The translations under genes and the position numbers were made by a program. This document shows, one piece after another, positions 32,927 to 57,660 of a DNA stretch of 64,000 nucleotides. The DNA comes from Symbiodinium sp. CCMP2592 (Eukaryota > Sar > Dinophyceae > Suessiales > Symbiodiniaceae): contig CAJNDT010005878.1 in the NCBI GenBank assembly GCA_905221615.1, positions 392,001 through 456,000 on the forward strand, written 5' to 3'. Position 1 is the first letter of the stretch, and the number at the start of each line of letters is the position of its first letter. Under the pieces are notes generated by a model that did no database searches, was not told where the DNA came from, and was given only the letters and a program-made list of their open reading frames with translations.

Positions 32927-32957
32927 CCTGGACAGCCCCCCATCGGTTAATAACCGA
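32927..32957 (+). repeat. Left terminal inverted repeat of the block
   Basis: 12-bp outer part CCTGGACAGCCC and 15-bp inner quasi-palindrome TCGGTTAATAACCGA, separated by CCCA. Confidence 0.7.
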
Positions 32958-32987
32958 CGTGACCTAAACACAAACCGATGTAGGCCA

Positions 32988-33400
32988 TCCCGGGCTCCCA
33001 GCGGTTAATCGAACATCCCAGCGGTTATTTGATATCCCAGCGGTTAATTCAACATCCCAGCGGTTATTTCAACATCCCAGCGGTTATTTGATGATCCCAG
33101 CGGTTAATTGTCCCAGCGGTTAATCCAGCGGTTAATCGTCCCAGCGGTTAGTCCCAGCGGTTAATCCCAGCGGTTAATTGTCCCAGCGGTTAATCCCAGC
33201 GGTTAATTGTCCCAGCGGTTAATCCCAGCGGTTAATTCCAGCGGTTAATCGTCCCAGCGGTTAGTCCCAGCGGTTAATCCCAGCGGTTAATTGTCCCAGC
33301 GGTTAATCCCAGCGGTTAATTGTCCCAGCGGTTAATCCCAGCGGTTAATTCACATCCTAGCGGTTATATATCCAAAGGTTCGGGATCCCAGCGGTTAGTG
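32988..33400 (+). repeat. CCCAGCGGTTAAT box array, left
   Basis: About 27 copies of CCCAGCGGTTA(A/T)T at irregular 13-26 bp spacing, with short linkers such as TCAACAT, TGAT and TGT. Variants end TTAAT, TTATT or TTAGT. Confidence 0.93.
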
Positions 33401-33402
33401 AA

Positions 33403-33620
33403 GGTGCCAACGGCCGTACGAACATGGTGTTAATGAATTTGTGTGGCGTGGCGAGGTGCCAACGGCCGTACGAACATGGTGTTAATGAATTTGTGTGGCG
33501 TGGCGAGGTGCCAACGGCCGTACGAACATGGTGTTAATGAATTTGTGTGGCGTGGCGAGGTGCCAACGGCCGTACGAACATGGTGTTAATGAATTTGTGT
33601 GGCGTGGCGAGGTGCCAAAG
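33403..33620 (+). repeat. 52-bp tandem repeat
   Basis: Four full units starting GGTGCCAACGGCCGTACGAA at 33403, 33455, 33507 and 33559, plus a partial unit at 33611. The units are nearly identical, so the array is young. Confidence 0.93.
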
Positions 33621-33667
33621 GCCGTTCTCTGCCTCCGGACGGGTGGCGCAAAGCAGCCAAACCTTCA

Positions 33668-33747
33668 CTTACTACTACTACTACTATTACTACTACTACT
33701 ACTACTACTACTACTACTACTACTACTACTACTACTACTACTACTAC
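33668..33747. repeat. (TAC)n microsatellite
   Basis: Nearly pure TAC triplets, open in all frames; overlapping frames are not genes. Confidence 0.92.
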
Positions 33748-33936
33748 AGCTTCTGCAAACACTGCTTGGGCTTTCGGTGCTTCAGCTTCTGCAAACACTG
33801 CTTGGGCTTTCGGGGCTTCAGCTTCTGCAAACACTGCTTGGGCTTTCGGGGCTTCTGCTTCTGCAAACACTGCTTGGGCTTTCGGTGCTTCAGCTTCTGC
33901 AAACACTGCTTGGCTTTCGGGGCTTCAGCTTCTGCA
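33747..33936 (+). repeat. 36-bp minisatellite
   Basis: Five units beginning AGCTTCTGCAAACACTGCTT, the last shortened. The same unit in a shorter 33-bp form recurs at 34590-34710, so the two arrays are related. Units keep an open frame (Ser-Ala-Asn-Thr-Ala-Trp), but this may follow only from the length being a multiple of three. Confidence 0.9.
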
Positions 33937-34199
33937 TACACAGCACATAAATAGTTTATCAGTTTTGCAAGTAGATCTTTGCAGTCCTGGCATCCAGGAC
34001 GGTAAATATAGCGGTTATGCAGTCCTGGCATCCAGGACGGTACGTATAGTGGTTATGGTCCGGTTATGGTTGTTACACTGCGTAGGTTTTCGTAGTACTA
34101 GTACTAGTAGAAAGCATATTATGCAGGAGTCTTTGTTGACTAGCTGTCACAATCAAACATATACACGTACGGCGTGGCGAGGCGCCAACAGCCATTACA

Positions 34200-54112: not shown

Positions 54113-54632
54113 TCAGGAAAGCGAGTGATAAATTTCAATGAGCTCTCACCGAGGAGAAAACAGAAGCCCAGGCACATCGCTGCCGGTCTCGGCCGCATCA
54201 TTGTCTGCGACATCCTGAAGGGGGTCGATCGATCATGTTTACAGGACTTAGGTGGTTTTTTTTAACGGTTTTAGCTAGGGAGCTGGTGTTTTGAGCTAGG
54301 TTTTGCCAAGAAGCCGAAAGAAAGCTTCGGGCGGTGGTGTCGTTGGCTGGGCCGGACCCCTTAGGGTTGAAGGCCCGGGGCACGTAGAGAGAACGATCGA
54401 GACAGAGCCAAGCGACAAGACATCCATCATCGACCAGGGCGGCGTCATGGGCCTTAGGTGGCTTTAACGGTTTTAGGGTTATGGTGTTTTGAGCTAGGTT
54501 TTGCCAAGAAGCATGAATGCTTCAGGCGGAGTTTCACCCCCCGGCGGAGCGTAGGGCCACATGATCGATGATGGAGAATTTGAACTGGCGAGGAAGTATG
54601 GGGACAGAAAGAGGCTATGCATGAAGTTCGCT

Positions 54633-55290
54633 AATTTCGCAGAGGCACGGCGCCATGACTCCGAAGCCCACGGAACCCCGGGAGGATGGTGTCCTTAAGG
54701 GTGTCCTTAGTGTCGGGCATTAACGCTTGGTTAAGGCGTGCAATATCAAGAACTTCGCCAAAGCACTGCCCATTGCCATGTCCCGATGAACCCATGGAGG
54801 ATGTTGTCCTGGGCGGGTGATCGCATTATGGCTGAAGGGTTTACGCTCGCAATTTTCGCAAAGGCACTGCCCAGTGCCATAGGCTCCTCGTCCACCCCTT
54901 GCCATGCCCAGCGTCCTTGGGTTCGGCAAGTATGGTTATAAGGGGTTTCAAGTTAATTAATTTAATTTCGCAGAGGCACGGCACCATGACTCCGGGGCCC
55001 ACGGAACCCAGGGAGGATGTTGTCCTTAGTGTCGGGCATTAACGCTTGGTTAGGGCGTGCAATATCAAGAACTTCGCCAAAGCACTGCCCAGTGCTTTGT
55101 CCCGAGGAACCCATGGAGGATGTTGTCCTGGGCGGGTGATCGCATTATGGCTGAAGGGTTTACGCTCGCAATTTTCGCAAAGGCACTGCCCAGTGCCAAA
55201 GGCTCCTCGTCCACCCACTGCCATGCCCAGCGTCCTTGGGTTCGGCAAGTATGGATATAAGGGGTTTCAGGTTAATTTAATTTCGCAAAG
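54633..55290 (+). repeat. About 330-bp tandem duplication with internal hairpins
   Basis: 54633-54958 and 54964-55290 are near-identical, with the shared start AATTTCGCAGAGGCACGG. Each unit contains the perfect palindrome GGCACTG-CC-CAGTGCC (about 54863 and 55181); the second also has AGCACTG-CC-CAGTGCT (about 55080). Mirrored minus-strand frames in both copies are by-products. No gene recognised. Confidence 0.88.
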
Positions 55291-56980
55291 GCACCGGCCG
55301 TGGCCGACCTCAATCCATCTTCCATGTTGCATCTGCCAAACCTGACAGCACTCGAACCGTATGGTTTCGGGTTTAGGGTTTGAGGGTTTTCGGGTTTAGG
55401 GTTTTTCGGAATTAAGGGCAGTCGAGCCGCGCCCGTCAGTGATGGAGGCGTTAGGGCAGGCGGCGACGGCGGCAGCGGCAGCGCTCCATCAGGCGGCGAC
55501 GGCGCCAGCGGCAGCGCTCCATCAGCAGGTGCAGGCAAAGCCCTGCACCCGCGGCGGTTCTCAATGGGAAGCATGAATGCTTCCTATTGATTATTTTGGT
55601 GCTGCCTGGAGCATGCCTATGCTTGTACATGATGCACATGGAATGGCTCCTCTGCCATGGAGCCCGCTATGCGCATCGTCAAGCAAGCTTGCACAACCGA
55701 CCAACCGACCATGCATTGAATGCAAGTCATAAGCACAAGCTCGGTCCTTCTTCCTCACAGTCGATGATCTCGATGACGATGGATCAAGTACCTGCGACCG
55801 GCCAGGTGTGAAGCAAGGAATAAAGAAGATCCGGGAGCCCAGGGTGGCACGCACTCGCGATGGAGGTCGTCGATGATGCCATGCCTTAAGGCCCTCGATC
55901 GAGCACTATGGGCGAGGCAATTGCATGGTATAACTACCGTGAATATCTGCTGTGGAATATTTGTACACAGGTGTATTCCAGCAGTGCCTTTGATCTAGGC
56001 TGCCGAGGCAGACTCTAGACTTTAGAGCGATTACGACAAATGCCTTCGGGCAAACAAGCACAAAATCAATCTTTGGTCAAGCATATTTGCAACCAACCTG
56101 AAGTGCACAGGCAAACCAATGTCGCATTTTGCGGTTCCCTCGGGCATTCAATCACTTCCCCTACTGGATTCCAACAAGTCATGTACACCTCCAGGCCGAG
56201 CGCTTGCATGAACGGCGCTGGCAGATTTCCAACAATTGAAGCTCCTGGAGAGCAGCACCTGATCCTCCAAAACCGATAGACGATCCATCACTGAGTTCAA
56301 AAGCCAATTGGTGCGCAAGGAGATCCTGATGATTTGAAGCTGCATGCTGTGCGCATGCCTACCCACCACACTCAGTGTGTCGGTACTCCAGGAATGATCA
56401 CTGACCTCCTCACCAGTCAGCTCTGGGACCGCCGCGGATTGTTCGCCCATCTTGAGGCCTAGAGTAGAATGCTCCAGGAATTAAGCCACATCTGACTTAT
56501 TCTCCCACGCTCTGAGATACGCACGGGTGGGATTTAGCGAGGCAGAGTGCCTACGGCCTTCAATGCTCTTCGCAGCTGCGGCATATTGCGGGACTTCTGT
56601 ACAGACTCGACAGACCTACGGCTTCAAATGATCTATATGCAGCTTCGCACAACCAACAAGCCAGGCCAATCAAAGCAACTAGGCACCCGATCGACCAAAC
56701 GAGCAAGCACGCCAAGCCATGAGTCGCAACCAAGCATGCAAGCACAACAACCGACCAAGCGAACAAGCTGTACAGCAAGCCTTCAAGCAATCAACCAACC
56801 GACCGACCGACTGAAAACAAGCGGCTAGTTAGCAAGCCTTCAAGCAATCAACCAACCGACCGACCGACTGAAAACAAGCGGTTAATTAGCTGTACACTCG
56901 TGCACTCTGACCAGCCACACGCGCAAGACGTACACGCTGCAACACTCAACCGACCCAAGCCAAGCACTCGCAACACAAGG
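55291..56980. other. Gene-free stretch with small repeats
   Basis: A ~30-bp GC-rich unit (GGCGGCGACGGCG with GCAGCGCTCCATCA) is duplicated at about 55460-55525. A ~45-bp unit with ACCAACCGACCGACCGACTG is duplicated at about 56780-56885. One opposite-strand 13-bp word is at 56541. No convincing gene. Confidence 0.5.
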
Positions 56981-56984
56981 CTTC

Positions 56985-57140
56985 GGAGGCTCTCGGTGCT
57001 AAGGCTCTCGGTGCTAGGGCTCTCGGTGCTTAAGGCTCTCGGTGCCAAGGCTCTCGGTGCTAGGGCTTTCGGTGCTAAGGCTTTCGGTGCTAAGGCTCTC
57101 GGTGCTAAGGCTCTCGGTGCTTGGGAGGCTCTCGGTGCTT
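56985..57140 (+). repeat. 15-bp minisatellite
   Basis: About ten units of AGGCTCTCGGTGCTA with C/T and A/G variation. The 15-bp period keeps frames open, so overlapping frames are not evidence of coding. Confidence 0.92.
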
Positions 57141-57282
57141 CCGGGCTTCAGCTTCCGCAGTCTACGATGGGGTCCCGAGGCTATTCTGGCAGGCGGCGCT
57201 CAATGCTGCCAAACCTGCCCTGGCTTTCGGAGCTCGGCTCGGCTATATATAGGGCTTCTCGATCAGTTACCCCCAGCGTATA

Positions 57283-57600
57283 CTGTCCCAGCGGTTAATC
57301 CCAGCAGTTATTTCTCCCAGCGGTTAATCCCAGCGGTTAATCCCAGCGGTTATTTCTCCCAGCGGTTAATCCCAGCGGTTAATTGCCCCAGCGGTTAATC
57401 CCAGCGGTTATTTCTCCCAGCGGTTAATCCCAGCGGTTATTTCTCCCAGCGGTTAATCCCAGCGGTTAATTGCCCCATCGGTTAATCCCAGCGGTTAATT
57501 CAAAATCCCAGCGGTTAATTCCACATCCCAGCGGTTATTTGATATCCCAGCGGTTAATTTAGCATCCCAGCGGTTAATACCACGTCCCAGCGGTTAATTA
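57283..57600 (+). repeat. CCCAGCGGTTAAT box array, right
   Basis: About 19 copies of CCCAGCGGTTA(A/T)T at 14-24 bp spacing with linkers such as TCT, TTGCC and TGATAT, in the same orientation and format as the array at 32988. It runs into the right terminal repeat. Confidence 0.93.
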
Positions 57601-57629
57601 ACCGACGTAACGCGTTGCACAATGTCCCA

Positions 57630-57660
57630 TCGGTTATTAACCGACGTAGGGCTGTCCAGG
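57630..57660 (-). repeat. Right terminal inverted repeat of the block
   Basis: Inner quasi-palindrome TCGGTTATTAACCGA (57630-57644) and outer GGGCTGTCCAGG (57649-57660), mirror of 32927-32957. Confidence 0.7.

Follow-up and report, generated by a model that had tools for sequence, protein, structure and literature searches.

What separates the two halves of an open reading frame in Symbiodinium sp. CCMP2592 that lie 24.7 kb apart? The question arises in a window of 64,000 nucleotides (contig C5016, positions 392001-456000 of the organism's own assembly, which comprises 1,098,105,373 bases in 5383 contigs; C-numbers denote contigs of that assembly), where the stretch 32927-57660 stands between the 5' part (57663-58033, minus strand) and the 3' part (32440-32924, minus strand) of a frame that belongs to a host repeat. 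Our answer, to which we assign a probability of roughly 0.9 jointly with the mechanism proposed below, is that 32927-57660 is a large DNA transposon, one of a family of such elements in this Symbiodinium-type dinoflagellate, with most pairs of ends about 20-25 kb apart, and that the family was probably active recently.

The original prediction, made from the letters of the window, described exact 12-bp terminal inverted repeats (TIRs), 15-bp quasi-palindromes 4 bp inside them and a GA outside each end, and the letters and positions are as described. The TIR CCTGGACAGCCC occurs once on the plus strand (32927-32938) and once inverted (57649-57660, minus strand), with no other exact match in the window; the quasi-palindromes are TCGGTTAATAACCGA on the left (32943-32957) and TCGGTTATTAACCGA on the right (57630-57644); and the duplicated GA occupies 32925-32926 and 57661-57662. 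The spacer between TIR and palindrome distinguishes the two ends, being CCCA on the left (L-type end) and, read inward, TACG on the right (R-type end). Just inside each end lies a direct array of boxes CAGCGGTTA, each consisting of a GC-rich part and an AT-rich part: 24 on the left (32999-33397, in units of approximately CCCAGCGGTTAAT) and 18 on the right (57289-57596), with five more in the interior (47339-47706), four of them within a 75-bp tandem repeat. The arrays are where they had been described, to which we add that they are not inverted: all 47 boxes of the element are on the plus strand and none is on the minus strand, and therefore the TIR is the sole inverted part of the element.

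These ends recur throughout the genome. A 31-bp pattern composed of the TIR, any four bases and the palindrome, searched for across the whole assembly with up to three mismatches allowed, yields 60 matches on 47 contigs (54 exact, six with one mismatch) and none for the reversed pattern that served as control; copies whose ends differ from the pattern by more than three mismatches fall outside this count. The earlier claim that the features of the block are together hard to obtain by chance holds for the 31-bp pattern, and the empty site described below agrees with it; the 12-bp TIR alone, which as a genome probe gives 287 matches versus 164 in its control, is not decisive, and one pair picked by it, on C179, turned out to be repeated sequence that lacks the palindrome. 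Two end types account for the 60 matches, 33 being L and 27 being R, and every convergent pair on the same contig (12/12) combines one of each, at spans of 13.9-64.0 kb (19.5-24.7 kb in 8/12). This composition fits the possibility that the polar arrays may keep a left end from standing in for a right one. Lone ends on short contigs are to be expected because the assembly is fragmented. No miniature copies were found with this probe, no same-contig pair among the 60 ends being shorter than 13.9 kb.

Eight copies were read end to end (the window copy, C913 with 4,928 N inside, C2381, C3557, C5060, C1073, C557 and C5016b); they are 13.9-24.7 kb long, and in all eight the boxes of the end arrays share one direction. 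Each of the seven others aligns with the window copy along 56-75% of its own length. Identity is 99.7-99.9% in a first repeat-poor block (five copies, after dropping C913 and C3557, which match partially, and C1073, which does not match) and 98.5-99.9% in a second (seven copies, after dropping C557, a partial match), and tandem-array stretches align less closely, down to approximately 90%. Judged from the sequences, the spread of the family would have been recent. A complete second copy (C5016:457163-479372) lies 7.5 kb past the window copy, in the same orientation and with its own CT duplication. In the C2381 copy, element positions 7644-10796 run opposite to the same segment in those other copies where it is present, and five boxes are on the opposite strand, reflecting either an inversion or an assembly effect.

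The junctions record insertion. A direct repeat of exactly 2 bp flanks 11 of the 12 pairs (GA, GG, CT, TA, AG, TG, AC, GC, TA, GG and GA). At the window copy, removal of the block together with one GA had been described as giving a continuous frame of 285 codons, and the flanks joined with one GA do read for 285 codons to a stop; the empty site so predicted was found letter for letter (81/81 bp) in all three of the other host-repeat copies that were fetched. Database searches with the joined frame gave five related proteins that cross the junction, four without a gap and one (P0008) with one extra residue. The interrupted frame belongs to a nearly identical repeat of high copy number, of which at least 40 copies agree at 100% over 166 bp (the best 40 of 285 candidates were scored). 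The window copy is inserted into a repeat that was already present in many copies. A second unoccupied site lies within the window at 62660-62740: it equals in length, with a few substitutions, a site for which C2010 has the R-flank and C990 the L-flank, with TT duplicated, and the ends on C2010 and C990 would belong to one insertion. The motif GGCACTCTGCC (protein EGRVP) occurs on the plus strand 24 times at 21000-32926 and 13 times at 57661-64000, and inside the element not at all on the plus strand and once on the minus strand; its distribution is therefore an independent mark of the block as foreign. Because an open frame of about 100 codons runs across the joined flanks in 7/11 pairs other than that of the window, the family appears often to land in seemingly coding stretches.

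A transposase-like gene accompanies the ends. The frame 35008-35976 (minus strand), a C-terminal exon with HYTQH and DEDHMK, has seven relatives in the database, of which one carries the name Symbiodinium microadriaticum, and lies next to an upstream exon (36047-36508, minus strand) that reads GDMEAH, ICDWC and FD; a query with further exons joined matched three Symbiodinium sp. CCMP2592 proteins, and P0014, from the same strain, reads in part, by eye, the same as the C2381 frame 5509-6609. These frames point to a multi-exon transposase gene on one strand. Read together, the exons of the window and of C2381 give the motif order HEDG, GDMEAH, ICDWC, (DIMH), HYTQH and DEDHMK, in which DIMH would arise through a GC-AG splice from the 36047-36508 exon to the next exon. 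P0013 has HEDG, GDxEAH, CxxC, HxxxH and EDHMK in the same order and lacks the DIMH exon, and C(2)C and H(3-4)H stand between the second D and the last E in P0013, P0005 and the window exons, the catalytic residues having been assigned by eye. A genome scan with the exon (best 124 of 493 candidates scored, 126 matches listed) gave 39 places with an identity of at least 70%, each entered as one row, with a short match on C236 (77%, 84 amino acids) left out; of the 33 L ends, 31 have such a place 1.5-2.2 kb inward, in the opposite orientation. The window copy itself is probably non-autonomous, because the upstream part of the transposase gene is missing from it in the assembly. Matches at 27-53% identity form several near-identical groups of relatives (e.g., 52% on C2524, C676 and C5326), and suggest further families of the same kind. 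Genome contigs of GTDB searched with P0013 gave one pattern match and no relative, and viral contigs searched with the box array and with the end gave no match to either.

Most of the copies read carry a second, methyltransferase-like gene. Two exons recognized by eye on the minus strand (48964-49191 and 48356-48904, overall 48356-49191) read VEFFAGVASIATAF and WVTLENPRC, which we take to resemble motifs of S-adenosylmethionine methyltransferases. The DNA block with these exons is whole in 5/8 copies, partial in 2/8 and absent from C1073, and the methyltransferase-like gene would be cargo. The 48356-48904 frame is 25% identical to a host-repeat frame at 30976-32136 (single comparison, E 8e-6); neither frame has a match to a protein family, in Pfam or otherwise, and the host-repeat frame has no significant match in the PDB.

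Near-identical copies with the same ends, 2-bp duplications, an empty site, homologues that span the junction and a linked transposase-like exon thus bear out the large DNA transposon that had been suggested. Several observations count against it. One of the 12 pairs (C3305) has no direct repeat; its two flanks are the same, in the 14 bp compared, as those of C2418 and C2381, which suggests a chimeric contig. The transposase-like exon is missing within 6 kb of two L ends (C406 and C761), and for 8 of the 39 exon places no L end lies within 6 kb; in four of these eight the exon is so close to the first base of its contig that an L end would probably lie beyond the sequence. No database relative has the proposed DIMH complete, and the transposase-like protein has no significant match in Pfam, NCBIfam or the PDB, where it returned only rows at chance level. 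PF18759 has no match in the whole genome at E 1 and none on P0013-P0015, and PF02992 (Transposase_21) has a single whole-genome match at E 0.2, below the cut-off; the genome profile searches with these two families take exons singly, which limits their sensitivity. The AlphaFold2 model is unusable (mean predicted local distance difference test score 33.9) and does not support an RNase H fold. Mobility, moreover, is read from sequence, no transposition event having been observed.

Taking the element to be a transposon, its affiliation is the next question. That it truly belongs, though diverged, to one of the named superfamilies (CACTA/EnSpm or Plavaka) falls just short of even odds. Tc1/mariner does not fit, the duplications not being confined to TA (GA, GG, CT, TA, AG, TG, AC and GC). 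TIRs common to dispersed copies, together with duplications of constant length and empty sites, are those of TIR-type cut-and-paste elements, and the motif order D-D-CxxC-HxxxH-E is that of the CMCT clade, in which duplications measure 2-5 bp (PMC12730594). The order of the motifs, as read from the exons, fits the published layout of EnSpm/CACTA-Plavaka, to which the family may belong. The size and the subterminal box arrays recall Tgmt*, a 20.5-kb soybean CACTA element of the En/Spm type, which is similar also in its short TIRs (13 bp in Tgmt*), in a multi-exon transposase gene on one strand, as we propose for the element here, and in asymmetric subterminal repeats built on a motif that is GC-rich in one part and AT-rich in another (PMC2613891). 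Box arrays are present in 8/8 copies, as expected of CACTA/EnSpm, though in a single orientation, whereas those of Tgmt* are described as direct and inverted (PMC2613891). The termini differ: CCTGG..CCAGG with a 2-bp duplication contrasts with CAC..GTG and a duplication of about 3 bp in CACTA/EnSpm (in Tgmt*, CACTA and 3 bp), and with the CA..TG usual in the CMCT clade. The absence of a significant Transposase_21 match is a further difference from Tgmt*. Plavaka elements share with the family the occurrence of 2-bp duplications (in PlavakaA) and a cargo concerned with DNA modification (TET/JBP there, methyltransferase-like here); their termini are TGT..ACA (A) or CATCA..TGATG (B) (PMC12730594), and they differ also in the PF18759 domain, for which this genome has no match, and in that the host here is a dinoflagellate.

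The one-directional boxes, the termini and the two profile searches without a significant match argue against a named superfamily. A tentative proposal, somewhat less likely than not, is a new superfamily of large DNA transposons specific to dinoflagellates; it would be set apart by CCTGG termini, a transposase lineage of its own, subterminal arrays that all point one way, duplications of 2 bp and, in most copies read, a methyltransferase-like gene, and would have been active very recently and often insert in coding stretches of other repeats. The family is at any rate probably undescribed, and possibly represents a new superfamily. Among the matches listed in a search of the literature on dinoflagellate and Symbiodinium transposons, no title or passage describes the element, which is not proof of its absence from print, and among those listed for the letter strings of the box and the TIR no title concerns an alga or a transposon.

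The original prediction had also offered an intron derived from a transposon, and this reading agrees with the geometry of the window copy but is not supported as a trait of the family. Along the strand of the gene, the junction is GCAAC/GTCCCTGG ... CTGTCCAG/GTCGG (slashes marking the boundaries of the block), and a GT-AG splice would rejoin the two parts of the frame exactly. A possible reading is then a giant introner, an insertion spliced out exactly with its AG acceptor supplied by the TIR (CCAG/G) and its GT donor by the target. The introners of Symbiodinium microadriaticum share this geometry: they are described as having TIRs and a 4-bp target duplication, bringing the 3' splice site with them and making use of a 5' one in the target (PMC9860276). 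An exact splice requires G[T/C/A]N at the target, and of the 22 strand sides offered by the 11 same-contig pairs with a 2-bp repeat (out of 12 pairs, only same-contig pairs being considered) the GTC of the window alone fits; neither strand of the ten other pairs has such a target, nor does any of the seven pairs outside the window with an open frame over the joined flanks. A giant introner is accordingly not supported as a property of the family (1/11 pairs), and because 1/22 strand sides fits, the exact geometry at the window copy is probably luck. Compared with the Symbiodinium microadriaticum introners, the element is gene-bearing, about 20 kb long and flanked by a 2-bp duplication, and no other pair is splice-exact; the introner families of that study, moreover, have median lengths of 30-654 nt (PMC9860276). 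The introner explanation is thus quite improbable.

More improbable still is that the block is carried passively, with no mobility of its own, inside a larger mobile EGRVP-coding repeat, as the high copy number of the interrupted frame might suggest. When the flanks of 30 ends were compared with those of the window copy, 26 were unmatched, one repeated the window's own left junction, two matched another site of the same repeat and one gave a weak 175-bp match; most insertions therefore have flanks of their own, each with its own 2-bp duplication in 11/12 pairs, and these independent flanks rule out passive carriage. An assembly artefact or chance inverted repeat, for which a scaffold gap inside the element and the chimeric appearance of the C3305 pair could be cited, can be dismissed as far as the ends of the element are concerned, given that the same ends recur on 47 contigs with exact duplications in 11/12 pairs and exact empty sites and that the left junction of the window copy is seen again in contig C2220.

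The transposon reading leaves the size of the window copy to be explained. This copy shares 32927-36555 and approximately 46790-57660 with other copies, and the 10.2 kb between (36556-46790, the right edge being approximate owing to a microsatellite) are unmatched in 7/7. The 24.7-kb length is not intrinsic to the family, because this interior, with a scaffold gap of 100 N at 39744-39843, is absent from all seven other copies. Beyond the gap are gypsy-like frames on the minus strand (39844-46405) encoding a reverse transcriptase RNase H (PF17917, 2e-8) and a CCCH-zinc-finger protein; no long terminal repeats (LTRs) were found around them in 36500-47400. Before the gap are second, divergent transposase-like fragments (38229-39648, minus strand; by eye CHHC, LHTINLG and RPKLH), perhaps a nested relative. 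Growth by nested insertion, which had been suggested as possible, is likely, because the block is unmatched in 7/7 copies and holds gypsy-like frames; the gap inside it tempers this conclusion, and a scaffolding error is the alternative for this interior and its gypsy-like frames.

The surroundings of the element have their own repeats. The 11-mer GGCACTCTGCC (often TGGCACTCTGCCTTC, protein EGRVP) occurs 49 times in the 64 kb (37 times on the plus strand and 12 times on the minus strand), with plus-strand copies at 21219-32777 and 57891-63908 and minus-strand copies at 10404-10780 and 20573-21035, often as in-frame tandem copies in unrelated frames; EGRVP has no occurrence among the matches listed from the dinoflagellate literature. 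The host repeat (32440-32924 with 57661-58033) may belong to a large mobile element that includes the methyltransferase-like frame 30976-32136. The window also has a copia-like retroelement (10381-21062) with RVT_2, a CCCH finger and candidate LTRs in the form of a 338-bp direct repeat (10824-11161 and 20186-20523), flanked by 92-94-bp tandem arrays that bear the EGRVP motif.

A mechanism for the transposon can be proposed. The transposase would be a DDE/D cut-and-paste enzyme of the EnSpm/CACTA-Plavaka kind; this enzyme, or a DNA-binding partner made by the element, would bind the box arrays and palindromes and pair the two ends, much as the TNPA protein of En/Spm binds subterminal repeats (PMC2613891). 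The transposase would then cut at CCTGG and join the element to target DNA with a 2-bp stagger, and the methyltransferase-like cargo gene possibly affects silencing.

Dinoflagellate genomes are rich in unclassified repeats. An element that carries genes, has well-defined ends and exact empty sites and varies little between copies is a promising candidate for a transposon that still moves in a relative of coral symbionts, and its end signature can be used in annotating dinoflagellate genomes. The family also allows one to ask whether a methyltransferase-like gene aboard a transposon promotes the persistence of its carrier.

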